Notes under the pieces: generated by a model
What the model saw: the letters and a program-made list of their open reading frames with translations, nothing else
Told to the model about the DNA's origin: nothing
Databases searched by the model: none
In this document: positions 18,465-61,444 of the stretch, piece by piece
Layout: every line of letters starts with the position of its first letter
Position numbering within the stretch: position 1 is the stretch's first letter
Assembly (NCBI GenBank): GCA_017551025.1
Contig: JAFZNG010000005.1
Span: 1-64,000 of the forward strand
DNA from: Paludibacteraceae bacterium
GTDB lineage: Bacteria > Bacteroidota > Bacteroidia > Bacteroidales > Paludibacteraceae
Length of the DNA stretch: 64,000 nucleotides
Direction of reading: 5' to 3'
Made by a program: the position numbers and the translations under genes

Positions 18465-18498
18465 CGTAATTACGTCATTGCGTCATTACGTCATTACG
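18465..18498 (+). repeat. 8-base tandem array, CGTCATTA family
   Basis: Four units (CGTAATTA, CGTCATTG, CGTCATTA, CGTCATTA) plus CG fill the gap between the uxaB stop and uxaA start. The same family fills the junctions at 26362-26395 and 41500-41535 and occurs inside the RNase R-like gene at 58785-58816. Confidence 0.9.
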
Positions 18499-23959: not shown

Positions 23960-23969
23960 ACTATATAAT

Positions 23970-24004
23970 AATTTTTAATTTTCAATTTTTAATTTTTAAT
24001 TTTG
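23970..24004 (-). repeat. 7-base tandem array, AATTTTT family
   Basis: Five units on the plus strand: AATTTTT, AATTTTC, AATTTTT, AATTTTT, AATTTTG. It lies between nif3 and the zinc-ribbon gene and codes for the last residues (KIKN) and stop of Nif3. The same family is found at 43263-43283 and 61417-61444. Confidence 0.88.
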
Positions 24005-24762
24005 ATGGGCGATTCGTCCGCTTCGCTGATGACGCATCGGATGCCCAACGGCTCCAACAGTTCGCGGAACAGGTCGCGGGTGAAGTGCTCGGATGTCCAG
24101 TGGTCGATATCCAGGAGTAGGATCCGCCGGTCGGCGGCCTGGAACTCGTGGTACTTACAGTCGGCGGTCAGGTAGGCGTCAGCACCTTGGGCGATGGCGT
24201 CCTCGATAAATTCAGCACCTGCGCCGCCGCATACGGCAATGCGTTGTACCGTATCTTTCTGTCCGCAGCAGTACCGTATCCATGGAGCCTGCATACCGTC
24301 TTTGATGAGCCGGAGCAGTTCGTCCGCGGTGATGGGTTGCGGCAGATCGCCTATGACGCCCAGGCCGTAGCCCTCGCCGCTCTCGTGCAGGATCCGGTAG
24401 TCGGTAAGGCCGATACGCTCGGCGATACGTCCGCTTACGCCGTGGAGATAACTGTCCATGGCCGTATGGCTCGAGTAGATGGCGATGCCGTGGCGGATGG
24501 CGCGTTCTACGCAGCGTGCCTGAGGCGACTGCCCGCAGACTTGTCTGAGTCCGTGGAAGAGGAGCGGGTGATGGGAGATGATGAGTTGGCAATCCTTGGC
24601 AATAGCTTCATCGACAACAGATTCTGTTACGTCTGTTGTCAGCAGGACGGCCCGTACGTCCGATCCTGGATCACCCACCTGCATTCCCGAGTTGTCCCAA
24701 TTCTCCTGGTAACTCAAGGGAGCTACAGATTCTATGCTATTAATGATGGCTCTGAGGAGCAC
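23989..24762 (-). CDS. Nif3-like dinuclear metal center hexameric protein
   Basis: The 257-residue protein belongs to the Nif3/YqfO (DUF34) family, recently linked to GTP cyclohydrolase-like or metal-chaperone roles but without an agreed function. It shows PLSYQENWDNSGMQVG near 17-32, ISHHPLLFHG with two metal His near 63, SSHTAMDSYLHGVSG near 97, CGGAGAEFIEDA near 173 and, at the C-terminus, DIDHWTSEHF. I use the GTG start at 24762, which gives the usual N-terminus. Its last residues (KIKN) and stop codon come from a repeat array. Confidence 0.9.
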   Translation of the reverse strand: MLLRAIINSIESVAPLSYQENWDNSGMQVGDPGSDVRAVLLTTDVTESVVDEAIAKDCQLIISHHPLLFHGLRQVCGQSPQARCVERAIRHGIAIYSSHTAMDSYLHGVSGRIAERIGLTDYRILHESGEGYGLGVIGDLPQPITADELLRLIKDGMQAPWIRYCCGQKDTVQRIAVCGGAGAEFIEDAIAQGADAYLTADCKYHEFQAADRRILLLDIDHWTSEHFTRDLFRELLEPLGIRCVISEADESPIKIKN

Positions 24763-26361: not shown

Positions 26362-26395
26362 CGTCATTACGTCATTACGTCATGACGTCATTACG
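26362..26395 (+). repeat. 8-base tandem array, CGTCATTA family
   Basis: CGTCATTA, CGTCATTA, CGTCATGA, CGTCATTA plus CG, filling the junction between the CNNM gene stop and the smpB start at 26401. The array ends CGAAAAA directly before the ATG. Confidence 0.92.
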
Positions 26396-30260: not shown

Positions 30261-31448
30261 ATGAAAGTGATTAAGTTTATTACATATATCCTTTGTTACC
30301 TCTTTTATCCGCTATCTTATTTAGTGCCGAGGACAAAAGAGATACTTGTTTTCGGCTCATTCAAAGGAGCATTCAATGATAATAGCAAATATCTGTTCCT
30401 TTATGCAAATGAGAACAAGGCAAATATAAGGCCTATTTGGATATCTACGTGTCGGAAAACTGTCGCATATATTCGTCACTTAGGATTTGAAACATATTGG
30501 GTCGCATCTCCTCTTGGTTTTTGGTATGCTCTGCGTGGAAAATATTGGTTTGTAAATTCGTATACGTCAGATATACTATTTTGTCTGAGTGGAGGTGCAA
30601 AGATAATCAACCTATGGCATGGTCTTCCGTGGAAATGTATAGAGTTTGGCATAAAGAAAGGGACGTTGGCAAAGCGTTATTCACGTGAAGACAAATGGGA
30701 TGTATTCTTCCATCCTGCGTGTTTTATGCGTCCGGATTATGTGCTATCTGGAGGGGAAATGATAACAGGTATTTTTGCTTATTCTTTTAGAATAGACAAA
30801 TTATGCTGCTTACCATACGGGTATCCTCGGAACATTTTGCTTACCAAACCAAAGGAGAGTGTGCTAGCGCATATTGAGCGCTATGAATCAAATGCCACCG
30901 CGGCATTAACGAAGAAGATGGCACAATACAAATTAGTATATATATACATGCCCACATGGCGCGATTCACAAAAGGATCTCTTTGCGAAGGGTATAGATTT
31001 AGAGGCATTGAATAAGGAGATGCAAGAGCAAAAGGCTTTAGCAATCCTGAAACCACATCCAAATACAGCAAAGCCAGAGCATGCTGATTTTACAAATTTG
31101 GTTTTTATGGATAGTACTACGGACGTATATTCTATTTTGCCCCTTACAGATGTGCTAATTACAGATTACTCTTCTGTAATGTTTGATTATCCGCTGATGC
31201 ATGGTAAGGGTATGATTTTGTACCAATACGATTATGAAGAATACATAGCTGAACGCGAGTTTAATTTTCCGTTAGAAGGAAATATAATTGGACGAAAAGT
31301 GACATCATTCGATGAACTATGTGAGACAATAAGAAAGAAGAACTTTATTCTGTCTGAAAAAGAAAGAGAAGGATTTATCCGAAAATTTTGGGGCGAGACT
31401 ATGAAGTTGAATTCATGTGAAGAAATATTGAAGAAAGTTATATGCTGA
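30261..31448 (+). CDS. CDP-glycerol glycerophosphotransferase family protein
   Basis: Transfers polyol-phosphate units from a CDP-activated donor to a surface glycan. The 395-residue protein has an N-terminal hydrophobic patch (IKFITYILCYLFYPLSYLV), the NLWHGLPWKCIEFG motif near 117, YMPTWRDSQ near 230, ILKPHP near 258 and ITDYSSVMFDYPL near 294, all hallmarks of the TagB/TagF-type family. It follows the SDR gene by six bases and overlaps the next gene by seven. In a Gram-negative context it would decorate or build capsule or O-antigen; this is inferred. Confidence 0.87.
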   Translation: MKVIKFITYILCYLFYPLSYLVPRTKEILVFGSFKGAFNDNSKYLFLYANENKANIRPIWISTCRKTVAYIRHLGFETYWVASPLGFWYALRGKYWFVNSYTSDILFCLSGGAKIINLWHGLPWKCIEFGIKKGTLAKRYSREDKWDVFFHPACFMRPDYVLSGGEMITGIFAYSFRIDKLCCLPYGYPRNILLTKPKESVLAHIERYESNATAALTKKMAQYKLVYIYMPTWRDSQKDLFAKGIDLEALNKEMQEQKALAILKPHPNTAKPEHADFTNLVFMDSTTDVYSILPLTDVLITDYSSVMFDYPLMHGKGMILYQYDYEEYIAEREFNFPLEGNIIGRKVTSFDELCETIRKKNFILSEKEREGFIRKFWGETMKLNSCEEILKKVIC

Positions 31449-32344
31449 AACGTTTGCATCAAATAGGGTTGTTGCCGGCGTGGTATAAGCTGAAGAATCT
31501 GCTTGTGCCGGATAGTGAGGTGGTGAGTATTGTGTCCCGTAACGGTGCATATGAATATTTATTGCGGTATAAATATGCATGTCAGAAACAGAGAGAAACA
31601 GAAACCCTAAAGCCAATAAAAGAATCGAAGTACGTTTGGGTGTGTTGGTTTCAAGGAATAGAAAATGCGCCTCTTTTAGTGCAGCGATGTGTAGATAGTA
31701 TTAAACGAAATAATGCGGATAAAGAAACTATCCTATTGACGGAGAATAATATGGGGCAATATGTGGATTTTCCAGACTATATTCTACAAAAATATAGGGC
31801 AGGGAAAATGACACGCACACATTTTTCGGATATTCTTCGGCTACATCTTTTGAGTCGTTATGGAGGTGTTTGGATTGATAGTACAATACTTATGACAGAA
31901 CATTTGCCTAAGTATATTTTGGATAGTCCTTTGTTTATATACCAAACACCGAGTGTCATTGGGCACGTTTGCTGTGCAACTGGTTTTATGGCATCGTGTG
32001 CGCATCATCCAATCATTGAAGATACATTAGCTATTATTAACGAATATTGGAAATACGAAAATAAGTTGATTTCCTATAGTGTTATTCACCTGGCTATTAC
32101 GATGGCAGTTAATAGTAGCGAAGCGAATATGCGAATGTGGAAAGAGATGCCGTTGTATTATTATGCCGACTGTGAAAAATTGAGGATACAGCTTAATGCT
32201 CCATATGAAGCAACTACATGGCAAGAGATGTGTCAGATTTCCGCCATTCATAAGTTGACTTATAAGTTCGCTGAATATGGTATTGACATAAATAAGAAGG
32301 GCACATTCTATGATGTGTTAATCAATGCAAACAAAGATGGATGA
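31442..32344 (+). CDS. Capsular polysaccharide glycosyltransferase (GT32-like)
   Basis: The 300-residue protein resembles the capsular polysaccharide synthesis/GT32-like family: VWVCWFQGIENAPLLVQRCVDSI near 61, LTENNMGQYVDFPDYI near 100, and DILRLHLLSRYGGVWIDST near 138-156, where the Asp carries the metal-binding role of the DXD motif. It is AT-rich and lies between the CDP-glycerol transferase and an acyltransferase remnant. It probably adds a hexose or uronate to the surface glycan; donor and acceptor are unknown. Confidence 0.82.
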   Translation: MLKRLHQIGLLPAWYKLKNLLVPDSEVVSIVSRNGAYEYLLRYKYACQKQRETETLKPIKESKYVWVCWFQGIENAPLLVQRCVDSIKRNNADKETILLTENNMGQYVDFPDYILQKYRAGKMTRTHFSDILRLHLLSRYGGVWIDSTILMTEHLPKYILDSPLFIYQTPSVIGHVCCATGFMASCAHHPIIEDTLAIINEYWKYENKLISYSVIHLAITMAVNSSEANMRMWKEMPLYYYADCEKLRIQLNAPYEATTWQEMCQISAIHKLTYKFAEYGIDINKKGTFYDVLINANKDG

Positions 32345-32362
32345 AACAGAGAATTGCACACT

Positions 32363-32581
32363 ATGTTACCATGGATTGGACGTAATACGATGCCATTTCT
32401 ATGTACTCATGCCTTAGTGTATGAGGCTATGCACATATTGGTATATCCCCATTTTTCCATCTCTGCGCACTTAATGTTGTTTATTGACTGGATATGTATA
32501 TTTATAGTTTGTGGGGGACTTACTTTTATATATCAAAATAGGTATTTCTATTGGATTTTTGGAGAAAAGAAATCATGCTAA
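32363..32581 (+). pseudogene. Remnant of a membrane acyltransferase (C-terminal part)
   Basis: An open frame of 72 codons (from ATG 32363; a TTG at 32354 would add three) encodes WIGRNTMPFLCTHALV, then two hydrophobic helices. The start resembles the last helices of acyltransferase-3 family (OafA-like) proteins, which have about 330 residues; the N-terminal four-fifths are absent. It is AT-rich like the genes before it and overlaps the GT2 gene by seven bases. It is probably a non-functional leftover of a deleted gene. Confidence 0.6.
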
Positions 32582-33486
32582 CCGTAATCATTTGTACATA
32601 TAATCGGGCGAAGTATATCGGGGCTTTGTTGGAAAGCATTGCAGCCAATGATTTGGATAAGAAGGCGTACGAGGTAGTGCTCGTGGATAACAACTGCACG
32701 GATAATACGCGAGAGATATGCGAAGCTTTTGCATCGGCGCATAAAGATGTGCAGTTCCGCTACGCAGTAGAGCCCGAGCAGGGACTCTCTGCCGCGCGAA
32801 ATAAAGGTATCCGCGAGGCAAAAGGCGATCTAATCGTATATGTAGATGATGACGCACTAGTGGATCCGCATTACTTGCGTGATTACGTAGAATGGTTTGC
32901 TGCGCATCCTCAGACTATGGCATGCGGCGGACCGATCGAACCGCTCTACGAGACCGAAGAGCCAAAATGGATGACACCCTATACAAAAGCATTGCTCACG
33001 GCATGGATGAACTATGGTGATAAGGTGCGCGAATATCCGAAGGGCCGCTATCCCGGAGGTGGTAATGCCGCTTATCGCAAAGAGGTATTCGACAAAGTCG
33101 GATTGTTTAATACAGCGCTTGGTCGTAAAGGTGGTAACCTGATGGGCTCGGAGGAGAAAGATATATTCGATAAGATGCATGCACAAGGTATGCAGGTATT
33201 ATATCTACCGACGCCTATTTTGCACCATTGTATTCCTCAAACTAAACTCGAGAAAGATTATTTTGACCGTTTGACACTCCAAATAGGTATTAGCGAGCGG
33301 CAACGTACACTAGCGATAGGTAAGGCGAAATACTTCAAACGACTATTCTCGGAATTCATCAAATGGTGCGGCACGCTCGCACTAATGGGGCTATATACAA
33401 TTAGTTTCCACCCCATGAAAGGATGGAAACTAATTCTATTCCGTCGTAACGTAACACGCGGTTTACTCGGCCTTGCTCGGCAATAG
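32575..33486 (+). CDS. Family 2 glycosyltransferase
   Basis: The 303-residue GT2 protein starts with MLTVIICTYNRAKYIGALL, has DNNCTDNT near 40, YVDDDALVDP near 88-97 (the DXD metal site), GGGNAAYRKEVF near 163 and a C-terminal hydrophobic segment around residues 270-285. It adds a sugar to a surface glycan. Base composition returns to that of the core genes, so it may predate the AT-rich cassette. I chose ATG 32575; a frame from 32551 adds eight residues. Its 3' end overlaps the convergent YfhO gene by 24 bases. Confidence 0.88.
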   Translation: MLTVIICTYNRAKYIGALLESIAANDLDKKAYEVVLVDNNCTDNTREICEAFASAHKDVQFRYAVEPEQGLSAARNKGIREAKGDLIVYVDDDALVDPHYLRDYVEWFAAHPQTMACGGPIEPLYETEEPKWMTPYTKALLTAWMNYGDKVREYPKGRYPGGGNAAYRKEVFDKVGLFNTALGRKGGNLMGSEEKDIFDKMHAQGMQVLYLPTPILHHCIPQTKLEKDYFDRLTLQIGISERQRTLAIGKAKYFKRLFSEFIKWCGTLALMGLYTISFHPMKGWKLILFRRNVTRGLLGLARQ

Positions 33487-34440
33487 TCGACACCAAAGCG
33501 GCCACGTTATCGAGCCGAGTGCGATGAGTAACAGGAGTATGGCGCATGCCATGCTCCATTTGTCTATTGTCAATGCGCCCGGCACAAATTCCATGCGGAT
33601 GGTATGTTCGCCTGCCGGAATAACAGCTGCTCGGAGAATATAGTCGGCACGGCCGATAGAAGCCTCCTGGTCATCGATATACAAGTGCCATCCTTCCGGG
33701 AAGTATACCTCGGAGAAGACAGCGACACGATTGCTGGCGCAGTTAGAAGTGTATTGAAGTTTATTGGGTTTATACTCGGTCAATTCAATCCGATCGGTAC
33801 TATCCGGCTTAGTGTCGCACGTTAGCACTTCGCGGAAACGCTCATCAGCCACAGCCGTCTTATGCAGGTCAACCGTGTTGAGTGCTGCACTTTCATCATC
33901 CGGCGTAGGCACAAATTGCACATTGTCTACAAACCATGCATTGCCCATAGCGTACGGGTTCTTGACAGGCATTGCTTCGCCGCTCTGGGTAGATACTATT
34001 GCATAGCGCATATTCAGCATATTCAGCACAGGGAAGTCGGCTCCCTGTTTCTCGTCCGGCATCGTAAAGCCGTTGGTGCGGAAGATGGTCTGGTAGAGCG
34101 GATTCATCTCCGGTACGATATGCGCCTCGATGAGATCTTGATAGCGACGCAGTTTGGCCGCATGATAACCTCCGATCGAGTGGAGACGATAGCTGGTACG
34201 CGAGTCGTTGAAGGTGCTGGTCGTGAGATTGAGTACACGATAGTCAAGCGTCGTATCTTGTAGAATCTCCTCTTCGTATGGCTGGATAGCGAAGTAGTTG
34301 TCGCTTTCGCGAGCGGAGACGAAGGCGTTGTCGCCGAAGAAACGCTTGTCAACGGGAAGCATGTCTAACAGTATTAATGCTGCCAAACCAGCATATAATA
34401 CTGTATTTGTGATTTGTGATTTGTGATTTGATTTTTCCAG
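33463..34440 (-). pseudogene. YfhO family membrane protein, C-terminal part (out of frame)
   Basis: About 326 codons without a stop encode the extracytoplasmic C-terminal domain of a YfhO-like protein: a transmembrane helix NTVLYAGLAALILLDMLPV, VDKRFFGDNAF, RVLNLTTSTFNDSRTSY, a beta-rich body, GWHLYIDDQEA and a final helix near residue 300. The frame is one base off from the N-terminal part at 34374-35999, and the switch coincides with three 7-base repeats at 34406-34426. As the sequence stands no full-length protein is made. One more repeat copy, or two fewer, would join the two parts. Confidence 0.8.
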
Positions 34441-35999
34441 GCGAACCAATAGGTAAGGACGAAGCCGAGAGCGACGAAGAGCAGCGAGCGCCAAGCATCG
34501 GCTTTGACCATGGCTACACGTTCGTCCATGATGGCGCGGCGCAACCAGTCGGGCACCTTGGTGGTCCATTGCTCGTCGTAGGTGCTGGTCATGTCGAAGC
34601 CACCGGCAAAGAGGGCTGCATACAGACACAGCGCCATCGTGATACCGCTGGCAATGAGCAGACTGATACGCAATTTCTTCCATTCTACTTCACCGGATGC
34701 GATACGCTGCAGGCCCATGAAGGCGAGAAGTGGCATGGTGATTTCCGCTACAACGAGGATGGACTCCACGGCGCGGAACTTATTGTACATCGGGAAGTAG
34801 TTGAAGAACAGTTCGGTGAGCCACATGAAGTTCTTACCCCACGCCAGCAGGATAGACATAATCGTGGCAAAAAGTAGCGCCCATTTATACGGTCCGGGCA
34901 CAATTAGCAGTGCTAAGATAAACAAGAAGCAGACGATAGCTCCTACATATACCGGTCCGCTGGTAAAGGCTTTCTCGCCATGATACGTAGGTACTTGCTT
35001 GCAGAACTGCTCCGCATCGCGCTTGGCGACGCCCTGCTTGCGCATGGCGCGGCAGAGTTGCGAGTCCTTGCCTACATTATAACCGCTGGCACCGCCTTCC
35101 CAGTTCGGGATGAGCAGCGTCATCGTCTCGGCCTTGCCATAACTCCAATCGGTAGCATATTTGAGATCGAGACCGACTTGAGAGGTCGAAGTTGTATCAT
35201 TGGCGGTCAGTTCGGAGTGCCCGCCACGCATAGTCTCCTTGAGGTAGGAGTTATTCATATCCCACCAGCTGTACTTCGTCGCGAATAGCAGAACCCCGCA
35301 GACAACGAGAATGCCAATCCCGATTCCTAAATCCTTGAAGCGTTTCTCGCGGATATGAATATACAGTTCGGCACAAGCCATGACGCCTATAAGCATAGCC
35401 ATGTAATAGGTCATTTGGGGATGCAACGTAATGCCGATAAAGCCATATACGAGCATTAGAGGTACGCCAAGCCAATATCGGCGGCGCATGATCGCATAGA
35501 ATCCGCCGATGACGGGACCGAGCATGCTGAGCGCAGCCGCTTTGGTCATATGACCGGCGGGAATGATGAGGAAGAAATAGCTACTCAGTCCAATCGCCAG
35601 TGCTCCTACTAGGCTCAACCACGGGCTGATGCCAAAACATAGCAGCATCAGGAAAAATCCGCAGAAATAGGCAAAGATCAGTCCAATGGCTGCGGTGCCT
35701 TCGGAGAATCCCAGACGGGTGAAGTTTTCCAGCGTACTGCGCATCTCGCCCGAAGGAAGAGAACCGGTAATTTGGAAGGTAGGCATACCACTGAACTGTG
35801 AGTTCGTCCACCATGTTGTCTCGCCCGTCTGTTGGTGGTAGGTCCTGGCTTCATTGGCTGAGCCGAGCCAGTTGCTGACGTCTCCAGCCGCGAGCACTTT
35901 GCCGTGGAGCATCGGACTGCAATAGAGCAGCGCTATACCAATAAAGACCACAAAAGCCACTAAGAAGGGCAGAATCTTTTTCCAATCAAATGATTTCAT
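34374..35999 (-). CDS. YfhO family membrane protein, N-terminal part (frame-shifted)
   Basis: The 541 codons encode most of the transmembrane portion of a YfhO-like protein: about ten or more hydrophobic helices, the conserved periplasmic loops GKVLAAGDVSNWLGSA and WWTNSQFSGMPTFQITG near residue 55-78, and MLIGVMACAELYIHI. The reading frame runs out with ITNHKSQIQYYMLVWQH encoded by a repeat array and the bases after it. YfhO-type proteins are large polytopic proteins of glycan or lipoteichoic-acid glycosylation. The gene follows merR by 25 bases on the same strand. Confidence 0.85.
   Translation of the reverse strand: MKSFDWKKILPFLVAFVVFIGIALLYCSPMLHGKVLAAGDVSNWLGSANEARTYHQQTGETTWWTNSQFSGMPTFQITGSLPSGEMRSTLENFTRLGFSEGTAAIGLIFAYFCGFFLMLLCFGISPWLSLVGALAIGLSSYFFLIIPAGHMTKAAALSMLGPVIGGFYAIMRRRYWLGVPLMLVYGFIGITLHPQMTYYMAMLIGVMACAELYIHIREKRFKDLGIGIGILVVCGVLLFATKYSWWDMNNSYLKETMRGGHSELTANDTTSTSQVGLDLKYATDWSYGKAETMTLLIPNWEGGASGYNVGKDSQLCRAMRKQGVAKRDAEQFCKQVPTYHGEKAFTSGPVYVGAIVCFLFILALLIVPGPYKWALLFATIMSILLAWGKNFMWLTELFFNYFPMYNKFRAVESILVVAEITMPLLAFMGLQRIASGEVEWKKLRISLLIASGITMALCLYAALFAGGFDMTSTYDEQWTTKVPDWLRRAIMDERVAMVKADAWRSLLFVALGFVLTYWFAWKNQITNHKSQIQYYMLVWQH
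34406..34433 (-). repeat. 7-base tandem array at the YfhO frameshift
   Basis: Three perfect copies of TTTGTGA on the plus strand (34406-34426; AATCACA phase on the coding strand) followed by a degenerate TTTGATT. The array lies in the loop between two transmembrane helices of the YfhO protein. Each unit shifts the reading frame by one base. Confidence 0.9.
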
Positions 36000-41499: not shown

Positions 41500-41535
41500 C
41501 GTAATGACGTAATGACGTAATGACGTAATGACGAC
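41500..41535 (-). repeat. 8-base tandem array, CGTCATTA family (minus strand)
   Basis: Four perfect units of CGTAATGA on the plus strand (TCATTACG on the coding strand) plus CGACG. It fills the gap between the kduD stop and the DUF4861 start and ends TTACGAAGAAT just before the ATG, as in the smpB array. Confidence 0.92.
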
Positions 41536-58354: not shown

Positions 58355-59695
58355 ATGTTTGATACAGCGGAAATTATGCGGCGTCGCGATATGCGCGATG
58401 TATTTACGTTCACCATCGATCCGGCGGACGCCAAAGATTTTGATGATGCGCTCTCGTTTGCGGTGCTGGATGCGTCCAATTACCAAGTCGGCGTGCATAT
58501 CGCCGACGTGACGCATTATGTCAAGCCGGGCAGTAAGATTGATAACGAAGCCTACGAACGAGGTACCAGTACCTACCTGGTGGATCGCGTTATCCCGATG
58601 CTACCGGAAGAATTGTGCAACGACCTATGCTCTTTGCGTCCGCACGAGGATAAACTCTGTATGTCGGTGATTTTTACTATCGACGGCGAGGCACGCGTGC
58701 TAAAACACAAGATTTGCCGCACCGTTATTCGCTCGGATGCCCGCCTTAATTACGATGAGGCGCAGGCTATTATCGAGGGCGGTCGTTATGACGTAATAAC
58801 GTCATGTCGTCATGATGAGTTAGAAACCGCCATCACAACCTTAAATGCCCTGGCGCAGAAACTTCGCGCTGAGAGAATGGCTAAAGGAGCCCTTGCTGTG
58901 GAGCAGGACGAGATGAAGTTTCGGCTCGATGAAACCGGGCATCCAATAGAGATTTACTTCGAGCATCCGAACGAGGCCCACCACCTTATCGAGGAGTTTA
59001 TGCTGCTCGCCAATCGCACGATCGCTGAGGCGGTAGGCAGTCGTCCGTTTGTCTATCGCGTACATGATAAACCGAATGAGGAGAAATTGGCAGATTTGGC
59101 CGATTTCAAGCGGCGCATGGGCGACAAGGCGCTACCGAATGTCGTGGAGATGCTGACTATCCGCGCCATGGCCAAAGCAGTCTATTCTACCAAGAATATC
59201 GGGCATTACGGATTGCGTTTTGACTACTATACCCATTTTACCTCACCGATCCGTCGGTATCCCGACATGATTGTACATCGTCTGGTGAGCAAATATATCC
59301 TGACAGGCAAGGGCGATACGTGGCCAACGGAGATACTGGAGAATATGTGTGTCCACTTGAGCGAGATGGAGCAGGAAGCCCAGCAGGCGGAACGCGAATC
59401 GGTCAAACTGTTCCAAACGCTCTGGATGACCGACCATCTAGGAGAAGAGTTCGACGGCCATGTGTCTGGCGTGACGGAATTCGGTATGTTTGTGCAACTC
59501 GATACCTCGCGTTGTGAGGGGATGGTGCATGTCTCGGAGATCTGCAAAGGCGATTATATGATGCTCGACGAGAAGAACTACCGCTTGATTGCCGCTGAGT
59601 CCGGCAAAACCTATACGATGGGCGATGCGGTACGAGTACGTGTGGTTCGCGCCGATGTACAGAAAGGGCAGATCGATTTTGAATTAGTCGTCTAG
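58355..59695 (+). CDS. Short RNase R/RNase II family exoribonuclease (RNB plus S1 only)
   Basis: 3'-5' exoribonuclease family. The 446 residues start at the RNB domain (DVFTFTIDPADAKDFDDALSF near 13-33, with the catalytic Asp cluster), VGVHIADVTHYV near 45, the RNB core with HFTSPIRRYPDMIVHRL near 295 (TSPIRRY/D motif), and end in an S1 domain (FDGHVSGVTEFGMFVQL near 370, GMVHVSEI). RNase R is normally about 700-800 residues; the roughly 230-residue N-terminal cold-shock domains are missing. The promoter at 58294-58324, only 30 bases upstream, indicates this short form is what is expressed. An 8-base array lies within it. Confidence 0.88.
   Translation: MFDTAEIMRRRDMRDVFTFTIDPADAKDFDDALSFAVLDASNYQVGVHIADVTHYVKPGSKIDNEAYERGTSTYLVDRVIPMLPEELCNDLCSLRPHEDKLCMSVIFTIDGEARVLKHKICRTVIRSDARLNYDEAQAIIEGGRYDVITSCRHDELETAITTLNALAQKLRAERMAKGALAVEQDEMKFRLDETGHPIEIYFEHPNEAHHLIEEFMLLANRTIAEAVGSRPFVYRVHDKPNEEKLADLADFKRRMGDKALPNVVEMLTIRAMAKAVYSTKNIGHYGLRFDYYTHFTSPIRRYPDMIVHRLVSKYILTGKGDTWPTEILENMCVHLSEMEQEAQQAERESVKLFQTLWMTDHLGEEFDGHVSGVTEFGMFVQLDTSRCEGMVHVSEICKGDYMMLDEKNYRLIAAESGKTYTMGDAVRVRVVRADVQKGQIDFELVV
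58785..58816 (+). repeat. 8-base array inside the RNase R-like gene
   Basis: CGTTATGA, CGTAATAA, CGTCATGT, CGTCATGA: four degenerate units of the CGTCATTA family, encoding about RYDVITSCRHD in a loop of the RNB domain. Confidence 0.75.
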
Positions 59696-59970: not shown

Positions 59971-61413
59971 TTAGCCAACACTGCCTTCTAGGGTTACTTG
60001 CAGTAGTTTTTGGGCTTCTACGGCAAACTCCATCGGCAGCTTATCCATCACCTCTTTGGCATAGCCGTTGACGATGAGTCCGACGGCGTCTTCGGTAGAT
60101 ATTCCGCGTTGTCGGCAATAGAAGAGCTGGTCTTCGTTGATCTTGCTGGTCGTGGCCTCATGCTCTACGGTAGCGGTAGGATTCATGATCTGCATATCCG
60201 GGAAGGTATGTGCACCGCATTTATCGCCTAGTAGCAGCGAGTCGCACGAACTGTAGTTGCGGGCGTTCTCTGCACCGCGCCCCATACGTACCAGGCCGCG
60301 GTAGGCGTTTTGGCTCAGACCGGCGGAGATGCCTTTACTGATAATACGCGAGCGCGTGTTGCGTCCGATATGTATCATCTTGGTGCCGGTATCGGCCTGC
60401 TGATGGTTGTTGGTGACGGCAACGGAGTAGAATTCGGCAGAGGAATTGTCGCCACGCAAGATACAAGATGGATATTTCCACGTGATGGCGCTGCCGGTTT
60501 CTACTTGGGTCCAACTTAGGCGGGCATTCTCGTGAGTGATGCCGCGCTTGGTGACAAAGTTATAGATACCGCCGCGTCCGTCCTTATCGCCCGGGTACCA
60601 GTTTTGGACGGTAGAATATTTCACCTCTGCATCGCGATTTACTACGATTTCAACGATGGCAGCGTGCAATTGGTTCTCGTCGCGCATCGGAGCGGTGCAG
60701 CCCTCCAGATAACTCAGGTAAGCACCTTCGTCGGCGATGAGCAGCGTGCGTTCGAATTGGCCGGTTTTACCGGCGTTGATGCGGAAGTAGGTGCTCAGTT
60801 CCATCGGGCAACGAACGCCCTTGGGGATATAGACGAACGATCCGTCGGAGAAGACGGCTGAGTTGAGAGCGGCGTAGAAGTTGTCGCTGGGCGGAACGAC
60901 CGAGCCTAAGTACTGACGCACCAGATCCGGATGCTCGCGTACAGCTTCGCTGATCGAGCAGAAGATAATGCCTTTCTCGGCCAGGGTCTCGCGGAAGGTA
61001 GTCTTCACCGATACCGAGTCCATGACGGCATCTACTGCCATGTTGCCCATTAGGGCCTCGCGCTCCTCGAGCGGAATACCGAGTTTGTCGAAAGTCTTTA
61101 GGATTTCGGGGTCGATTTCCGGATTCTGGCTATCGGCTGTTGGCTGTTGGCTGCGAGGGGCAGCATAGTAGGAAATAGACTGGAAATCGATAGGCGGTAT
61201 ATCGAGGTGTGCCCACGTTGGAATCGGCATGTTCTGCCATTTACGGAAGGCTTTGAGTCGGAACTCCAACAGCCATTCGGGTTCTTGCTTCTTATGGGAG
61301 ATGAGCCGGATAACGTCCTCGTTGAGGCCTACGGGAATAATGTCGGTCTCCACGTTGGTCGTGAAACCGTATTTGTATTCCTGCGAAGTGATATCTTGGA
61401 TTAACGTATCCAA
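59971..61413 (-). CDS. sufB: Fe-S cluster assembly scaffold SufB
   Basis: Scaffold of the SUF system. The 480-residue protein has [27 protein letters not shown] near 13, [25 protein letters not shown] near 150, [19 protein letters not shown] near 197, [29 protein letters not shown] near 300 and the C-terminal [16 protein letters not shown] near 432. The C-terminal Cys and Arg are those of the assembly site. It starts at TTG 61413, right beside an AATTAAA array. SufC and SufD are not adjacent. Residues about 90-102 come from a repeat array. Confidence 0.92.
61128..61155 (-). repeat. 7-base array inside sufB
   Basis: GGCTATC, GGCTGTT, GGCTGTT, GGCTGCG on the plus strand. On the coding strand it gives the low-complexity segment SQQPTADSQ near residue 90-98 of SufB. 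Confidence 0.75.
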
Positions 61414-61416
61414 TTG

Positions 61417-61444
61417 AATTAAAAATTAAAAATTAAAAATTCAA
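61417..61444 (-). repeat. 7-base array, AATTAAA family, before sufB
   Basis: AATTAAA three times, then AATTCAA on the plus strand, between the tRNA-Cys terminator and the sufB start at 61413. It is the reverse complement of the AATTTTT family at 23970-24004. Confidence 0.88.

Follow-up and report, generated by a model that had tools for sequence, protein, structure and literature searches.

Seven-base tandem arrays that pass in frame through protein loops in a Paludibacteraceae lineage, and a probable slippage frameshift in a YfhO-like gene

A gene for a YfhO-like membrane protein is split at a perfect 7-base tandem array, and the reading that we consider probable is that a lineage-specific burst of such arrays enters protein loops in frame and that the YfhO break is a recent slippage frameshift. 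We directly observed the anatomy of the break, the in-frame state of most arrays inside genes, their density across the genus and the turnover of their units. The window, that is, the whole stretch of 64,000 nucleotides that was analyzed, belongs to a genome assembled as 36 contigs totalling 1.94 Mb. The named relatives matched by the N-terminal part of the protein are Paludibacteraceae or Bacteroidales MAGs, several of which come from the gut of sheep, goats, cattle or yaks, and the window comes from an uncultured bacterium, probably of the ruminant gut.

Anatomy of the split YfhO-like gene

The initial annotation had placed the two halves of this gene in different frames, with the shift at a 7-base array, and both the sequence and TRF bear this out. 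It had counted three copies at 34406-34426; the repeat is indeed perfect at 7 bases, but it extends slightly further, as the following list of features shows.

34440..35999, minus strand: N-terminal part of a YfhO-like multi-pass membrane protein, 520 residues before the loop
33463..34425, minus strand: C-terminal part of the YfhO-like protein in a different frame, with the post-loop helix, a soluble stretch and the final helix
34405..34430, minus strand: perfect 7-base tandem array at the frame break, 3.7 copies, 26 bp (TRF)
34360..34362, minus strand: first C-frame ATG beyond the N-part stop, 11 bases past that stop, a candidate restart

TRF gives the unit as ATTTGTG, which is AATCACA on the minus (sense) strand. 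The frame of the N part (34374-35999, minus) continues past the loop and ends with TAA at 34374-34376; the homologous stretch of the C part covers about 33466-34425 (minus), and the C frame is open upstream to about 34690. Of ~860 residues, the final ~320 are encoded out of frame, and the arithmetic offered earlier, by which a gain of one copy or a loss of two rejoins the frames, is correct. Further inactivating mutations had been named as a sign against a switchable gene, and when additional stops were sought in both halves, none was found. Hydrophobic stretches flank the loop, with Kyte-Doolittle maxima of 1.4 and 2.1, which agrees with the proposed position of the break in a loop between transmembrane helices. 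At 26 bp the array is short, ranking 18 among 149 exact arrays of the own-genome sample, and it is not due to chance. For the window copy, pN was 0.14-0.24 and pS 0.67-0.81 in both halves, which look to be under constraint; with pS this close to saturation, a break of moderate age would stay hidden and only an old break is excluded.

The YfhO label itself is weak. Two intact relatives score 28.7 bits against Pfam PF09586 (YfhO), just above the cut-off of 28.5, over only ~75 C-terminal positions (~755-830 of 835); the C part of the window copy reached 25.6 bits, below the cut-off, and its N part had no match at E<=1. In Gram-positives, YfhO (PF09586) has been connected with the glycosylation of lipoteichoic acid (Bacillus and Listeria have been studied), a polymer that, to our knowledge, Bacteroidales would not be expected to produce. 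What the present protein has in common with Gram-positive YfhO is the C-terminal Pfam match; the difference is that so few positions align. The adjoining genes (30261-33486: glycosyltransferase, capsule-type, glycerophosphotransferase) only suggest an envelope glycan role.

Homologues and turnover of the loop

The N part matched in 93 of the 101 genomes searched, its own included. We took 70 loci (30 from the first search, among them the own copy, and 40 fetched after) and placed both halves in 69, leaving out L029, which ends before the loop; each species is represented by one genome. The alignment with intact homologues, a check proposed in the initial annotation, put the N and C matches in the same frame in 67 of these 69. 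The two others are the window copy and L050 (G004); the frame of L050 is shifted by a deletion upstream of the loop, and its array shares a frame with the helix on each side. L050 is a second broken YfhO copy in the genus, whether real or an assembly fault. The C part of L007 (G074), one of the 67 in-frame homologues, contains a stretch of N, and we rejected an apparent additional break in G074 (L007/L148), which is that stretch.

A heptamer array occupies the loop in 17 of the 69 homologues, a count made up of 15 of 68 scored loops with at least 11/14 matches at lag 7, plus L028 (10/14) and L050 (recognized by eye). Of the 16 besides the window, 15 are in frame and the sixteenth is L050, broken upstream. 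At lags 3-12 other than 7, L020 alone reached the threshold, at 8, and the remaining loops had no comparable array; these include the loop of the closest homologue, L003 (79% identity over the N part), in which no heptamer array was found. The units vary by species, with AATCACA, CTAAACA, AGGCGAA, CCAATCT, TCAAATC, ATCACCG and AGCCAAT types. On a protein tree built without the loop, array presence required 13 changes by parsimony, 9 of them forced by well-supported branches, and it was weakly clustered (40 of 500 shuffles were equally low). Judged from these comparisons of sequence, arrays appear and vanish in the YfhO loop, which is a hot spot. The loops of L039 and L044 carry a different insert, of CCC/GGG-rich DNA that looks palindromic and is nearer to Rickettsia-type elements.

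Between the closely related L034 and L050, identity is 63% in the loop window versus 88-93% alongside, and another patch (the seventh to ninth hundred bases of the gene) also falls to 66-81%; the loop was thus replaced locally in a gene that is mosaic elsewhere too. So recombination patches, besides repeat turnover, shape the YfhO-like gene. Other close YfhO pairs are also patchy (e.g., 66-81% next to 90-97%), as if species had swapped short stretches.

Heptamer arrays across the genome and the genus

At a threshold of at least 10 matched offsets, the window contains 8 exact period-7 arrays versus 0 in each of 20 dinucleotide shuffles. The first 408 kb of the genome, scored at a threshold of at least 12 matched offsets, hold 43 exact arrays at period 7 versus 0-7 at each other period from 2 to 13, with 16 at period 14 and 21 at period 21, both multiples of 7. 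When degenerate arrays (17/21 matches) were counted in 772,452 bases (40% of the own genome), 162 were found at period 7, and none in 5 whole-stretch and 3 local shuffles of the same 772 kb; periods 5, 6, 8, 9, 10 and 11 gave 0, 2, 23, 20, 3 and 5 arrays, respectively. If the 40% sample is representative, the genome holds about 400 arrays. The density was 210/Mb in the own genome and 95/Mb in the same genus (790 kb from 28 species, 18-60 kb each; range 0-450/Mb), compared to 2.9/Mb in other Bacteroidales, the last figure being one array in 344 kb from 19 genomes, one of them of the same family.

The units recur between loci. With A/T-only units left out, the pair coincidence was 0.034 versus 0.001 for random heptamers, and for 16 of the 58 genus arrays the unit is found in array form in the own genome as well, against 4.2% for random heptamers. 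An 18-base AATCACA pattern was present in 36 of 101 genus genomes and a CTCAACT pattern in 26 of 101; at order level, a 22-base AATCACA pattern was present in 1 of 149 genomes, namely the own genome, a count that is not directly comparable with that for the 18-base pattern since the pattern lengths differ. Reversed versions of the 18-base AATCACA and the CTCAACT patterns were set aside as controls because they are not neutral, one being a different heptamer family of the genus and the other a rotation of its own unit.

Further heptamer arrays of the window lie at a gene boundary, within a gene and between genes.

23966..24007, minus strand: AATTAAA-type heptamer array at a gene boundary, with stops within the array
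61126..61155, minus strand: in-frame heptamer array in a SufB/SufD-family gene (59974-61413), preceding the Pfam domains; SufB is our interpretation
61417..61441, no strand assigned: intergenic AATTAAA-type heptamer array, 4 bp past the 5' end of the SufB-type gene

In A/T-type arrays, a TAA that recurs in the unit is kept between genes, and within genes that codon is altered. AATTAAA-type arrays were seen only a few bases from the ends of called genes at L072:13667, L073:11140, L076:8626, L077:2176, L088:4627 and, in the window, 23984 and 61417; they often occupy the intergenic gap, as if they were a spacer or transcript-end element. Other periods were also noted. Period 8 is the second most frequent of those tested in the own genome, and 8-base tandem arrays (CGTCATTA / CGTAATGA / CGTCATGA) lie in the window at 18465-18498, 26362-26395, 41500-41533 and 58784-58815. 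Period-11 arrays reach 39/Mb in the genus sample (L119, L131 and L138 among others) versus 6.5/Mb in the own genome. At L084:11-77, a 67-bp GTATGGT array stands close to the contig start. Long heptamer arrays may halt assembly and are perhaps under-counted.

In-frame arrays inside core genes

The own sample yielded 38 in-frame rows, which correspond to 37 arrays, one array having been counted on both strands. Eighteen of the 37 sit in ten proteins with Pfam matches.

DXS: 4 in-frame arrays
RlmN-type methyltransferase: 2 in-frame arrays
Class I tRNA synthetase of the I/L/M/V group, interpreted as IleRS: 2 in-frame arrays
Glutamyl/glutaminyl tRNA synthetase, interpreted as GltX: 2 in-frame arrays
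MutS: 1 in-frame array
Mur ligase-alanine racemase fusion: 2 in-frame arrays
UvrA: 1 in-frame array
Ribosome-binding-type GTPase: 1 in-frame array
Glycogen synthase: 2 in-frame arrays
Mfd-type helicase: 1 in-frame array

One more in-frame array is that of the SufB/SufD-family gene of the window, and the other 18 were assigned by open frame and codon usage only, from rough gene calling. We followed DXS, present in 59 of 61 genomes, through four loops in 30 aligned copies (own included): 37 of the 120 loop-by-species cells reached at least 11/14 at lag 7 (5, 17, 7 and 8 of 30 per loop), 6 cells reached the threshold at another period only (8 or 9), and no stop was found in the loops of the 30 copies. 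The unit at one site differs between species. The DXS loops of L233, L235, L237 and L240 contain a different insert (peptide like SPTLPSREGG), which looks palindromic and is nearer to Rickettsia-type elements. On/off switching of tRNA synthetases, DXS, MutS or UvrA would presumably be lethal or crippling.

Arrays that break the frame

Out of frame were 2 of the 39 intragenic arrays detected, those of YfhO and of an aminotransferase, in a scan that depends on coding signal to either side of the array and may overlook cases. Three rows had been classed as open shifts, these two and L079, which reads as a gene boundary; L079 17350 and L091 3376 were rejected as array-linked shifts, the printed peptides putting the array at a gene boundary. 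The other 46 not-in-frame rows (28 + 15 + 3) are read as probable gene boundaries, since a stop lies within the array. The second broken gene encodes a class I/II aminotransferase, interrupted at a heptamer array at L078:7511-7555.

L078:7466-8197 and L078:7012-7563, minus strand: the two pieces of the aminotransferase, broken at the array

Against PF00155, the N piece covers positions 2-197 and the C piece, in the other frame, 207-361. The aminotransferase has matches in 59 of 101 genomes (E<=1e-50), among which the own copy alone is short, at 263 aa versus 382-441 in the 58 others. When 30 copies of the loop were compared, the heptamer array was found in the own copy only and was missing from the 29 relatives, and the own loop measures 40 nt versus 18 in most.

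A split-gene control against relatives covered 39 position clusters, crudely defined, and YfhO was the sole split. An all-against-all split-gene comparison, judged by the count of supporting queries, returned many two-query splits, which resemble antisense ORFs across gene boundaries; this comparison is blind to the aminotransferase, for which the sampled relative stretches yielded no usable homologue.

Discussion

How arrays could enter genes and occasionally break one

On the reading that we prefer, a lineage-specific burst with a slippage frameshift in YfhO, arrays would probably arise and turn over fast through slippage or template switching in steps of 7 nt, and they would survive between genes and at variable loops within genes, where an insert should be cheap. 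As 7 cannot be divided by 3, each array runs through all frames and, by the genetic code, yields an identical seven-residue repeat peptide from any entry frame; a stop-free strand is therefore a tolerable linker in any register, provided that the net length preserves the downstream frame. Given such a linker and this rule of net length, purifying selection would retain the frame of arrays in needed genes, and breaks would be rare and confined to dispensable genes. In YfhO, the array would have changed copy number and put the C-terminal third out of frame, making the window copy a probable loss-of-function (OFF) allele. The break would be recent, since both halves still seem constrained, and the frameshift could in principle revert.

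It is the tandem structure only that points to slippage, and local slippage alone does not predict that G/C-containing units coincide between loci 34 times as often as random heptamers; copying between loci or a sequence-dependent origin seems needed. We therefore also put forward, as a tentative and rather doubtful proposal, a process at work in the genus that writes 7-base arrays from a limited set of shared units into new sites, core-gene loops included, without a classical transposase. A candidate agent of such a process would be a polymerase with a 7-nt stutter, combined with template switching.

Alternative explanations for the YfhO break

The initial annotation had read the gene as a candidate phase-variable locus, a contingency locus in which frequent copy-number flips switch an envelope protein, with the assembled allele OFF. 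Part of that argument stands: the break falls on a perfect coding repeat whose copy number sets the frame, the homologues are intact in a single frame, no other stop is present, and the same genome holds a second array-linked frameshift, in the aminotransferase. A heptamer case is moreover known from H. influenzae hmw1A (excerpted text of PMC8262952). Against phase variation, 15 of the 16 other loop arrays preserve the frame, with the break of the remaining gene lying outside its array, like arrays pass in frame through core genes, and the array is short. The repeat unit is not conserved, and the relatives do not retain a repeat tract at the locus as those of a contingency locus would (17 of 69 have one, with differing units). 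A dedicated contingency locus is thus unsupported; on the loop comparison and the genome sample, we rejected a dedicated switch as the main reading and regard phase variation as unlikely. The two out-of-frame arrays could still be OFF alleles of a flipping population, of which we see one assembled genome.

We also consider it improbable that the true array is in frame and that the assembly or its consensus has the copy number wrong. The assembly is fragmented (36 contigs), the contig of L084 begins with its 67-bp heptamer array, so that arrays can hamper assembly, and one apparent YfhO break in a relative was a run of N. However, an array of 26 bp would fit well within reads of ordinary length, although the read type of this assembly may differ; no split gene besides YfhO was found among the 39 crude position clusters; and the aminotransferase break coincides with an array that is missing from 29 relatives. 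Very unlikely, in our view, is that the two halves are made separately, by a restart at the ATG at 34362 or by slippage of the ribosome along the repeat, and function together in split form; a protein split in this way could nevertheless be active. The C-frame ATG 11 bases past the N-part stop and the seeming constraint on the C part fit such an arrangement, but a restart would lose the post-loop helix seen in homologues, and the loop DNA varies by lineage, so that a conserved slippery signal is absent. We retain the slippage frameshift within a burst of arrays as the probable explanation.

Relation to known repeat systems

Heptameric simple sequence repeats go by the label STRR. Such repeats are known from Calothrix, Nostoc, Xanthomonas (GGGAATC), Beggiatoaceae (TAACTGA) and a few Bacteroidetes, and the present arrays resemble those described in the accessible portions of these reports in being short, 7-base, numerous per genome and often intergenic (PMC4692102, PMC4679880). 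Like them, they exceed other periods and shuffles at period 7, and their units recur at unrelated places. Compared with these portions of the two reports, they differ in that dozens of units occur in one genome and many arrays lie in frame mid-enzyme, in core enzymes; in a Beggiatoaceae genome, 24 repeat sets were located in or overlapping 25 ORFs, mostly at protein ends, according to the same portion of one report (PMC4679880). Heptamer over-representation in many bacteria has been on record for years, and the part of the source at hand offers only a guess at its cause, namely that the 7-base step mirrors the DNA held by the polymerase (PMC4692102).

Our arrays are also like Rickettsia palindromic elements (RPE), as far as the excerpt of PMC10969869 describes them, in being repeated DNA that stands in frame in unrelated genes and is tolerated in the protein; they are missing from some orthologues, and both YfhO and DXS have orthologues with and without them. 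Unlike RPE, which in that excerpt are ~150 bp long and form defined families with a conserved peptide (PMC10969869), they are tandem heptamers of roughly 28-45 bp and varied sequence, and a palindromic, conserved element of ~150 bp was not seen in the heptamer arrays. With hmw1A they share the 7-base tandem structure, and there expression depends on the number of copies; in the excerpted account, hmw1A has one unit in the promoter region, with 13-24 copies in constructs, whereas here 3.7 copies of a variable unit lie in a coding loop (PMC8262952).

In the open-licence literature searched, we found no description of in-frame, many-unit heptamer arrays within the central parts of core enzymes, whether genus-wide or in the Bacteroidales. 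The arrays are heptamer simple repeats, a known kind, with in-ORF inserts as in Rickettsia.

Implications for the lineage

Where an assembled genome shows a gene broken at a short repeat, phase variation does not necessarily follow. Since the load varies between species (0-450/Mb) and is near zero in 344 kb from 19 other genomes, its cause can be mapped by genome comparison, and orthologous loops with different heptamers constitute a natural record of the tolerance of proteins to inserts. If the proposed array-writing process is real, it would have remodelled dozens of conserved proteins and broken an occasional gene, and the YfhO-like gene of the window would be one such broken site.
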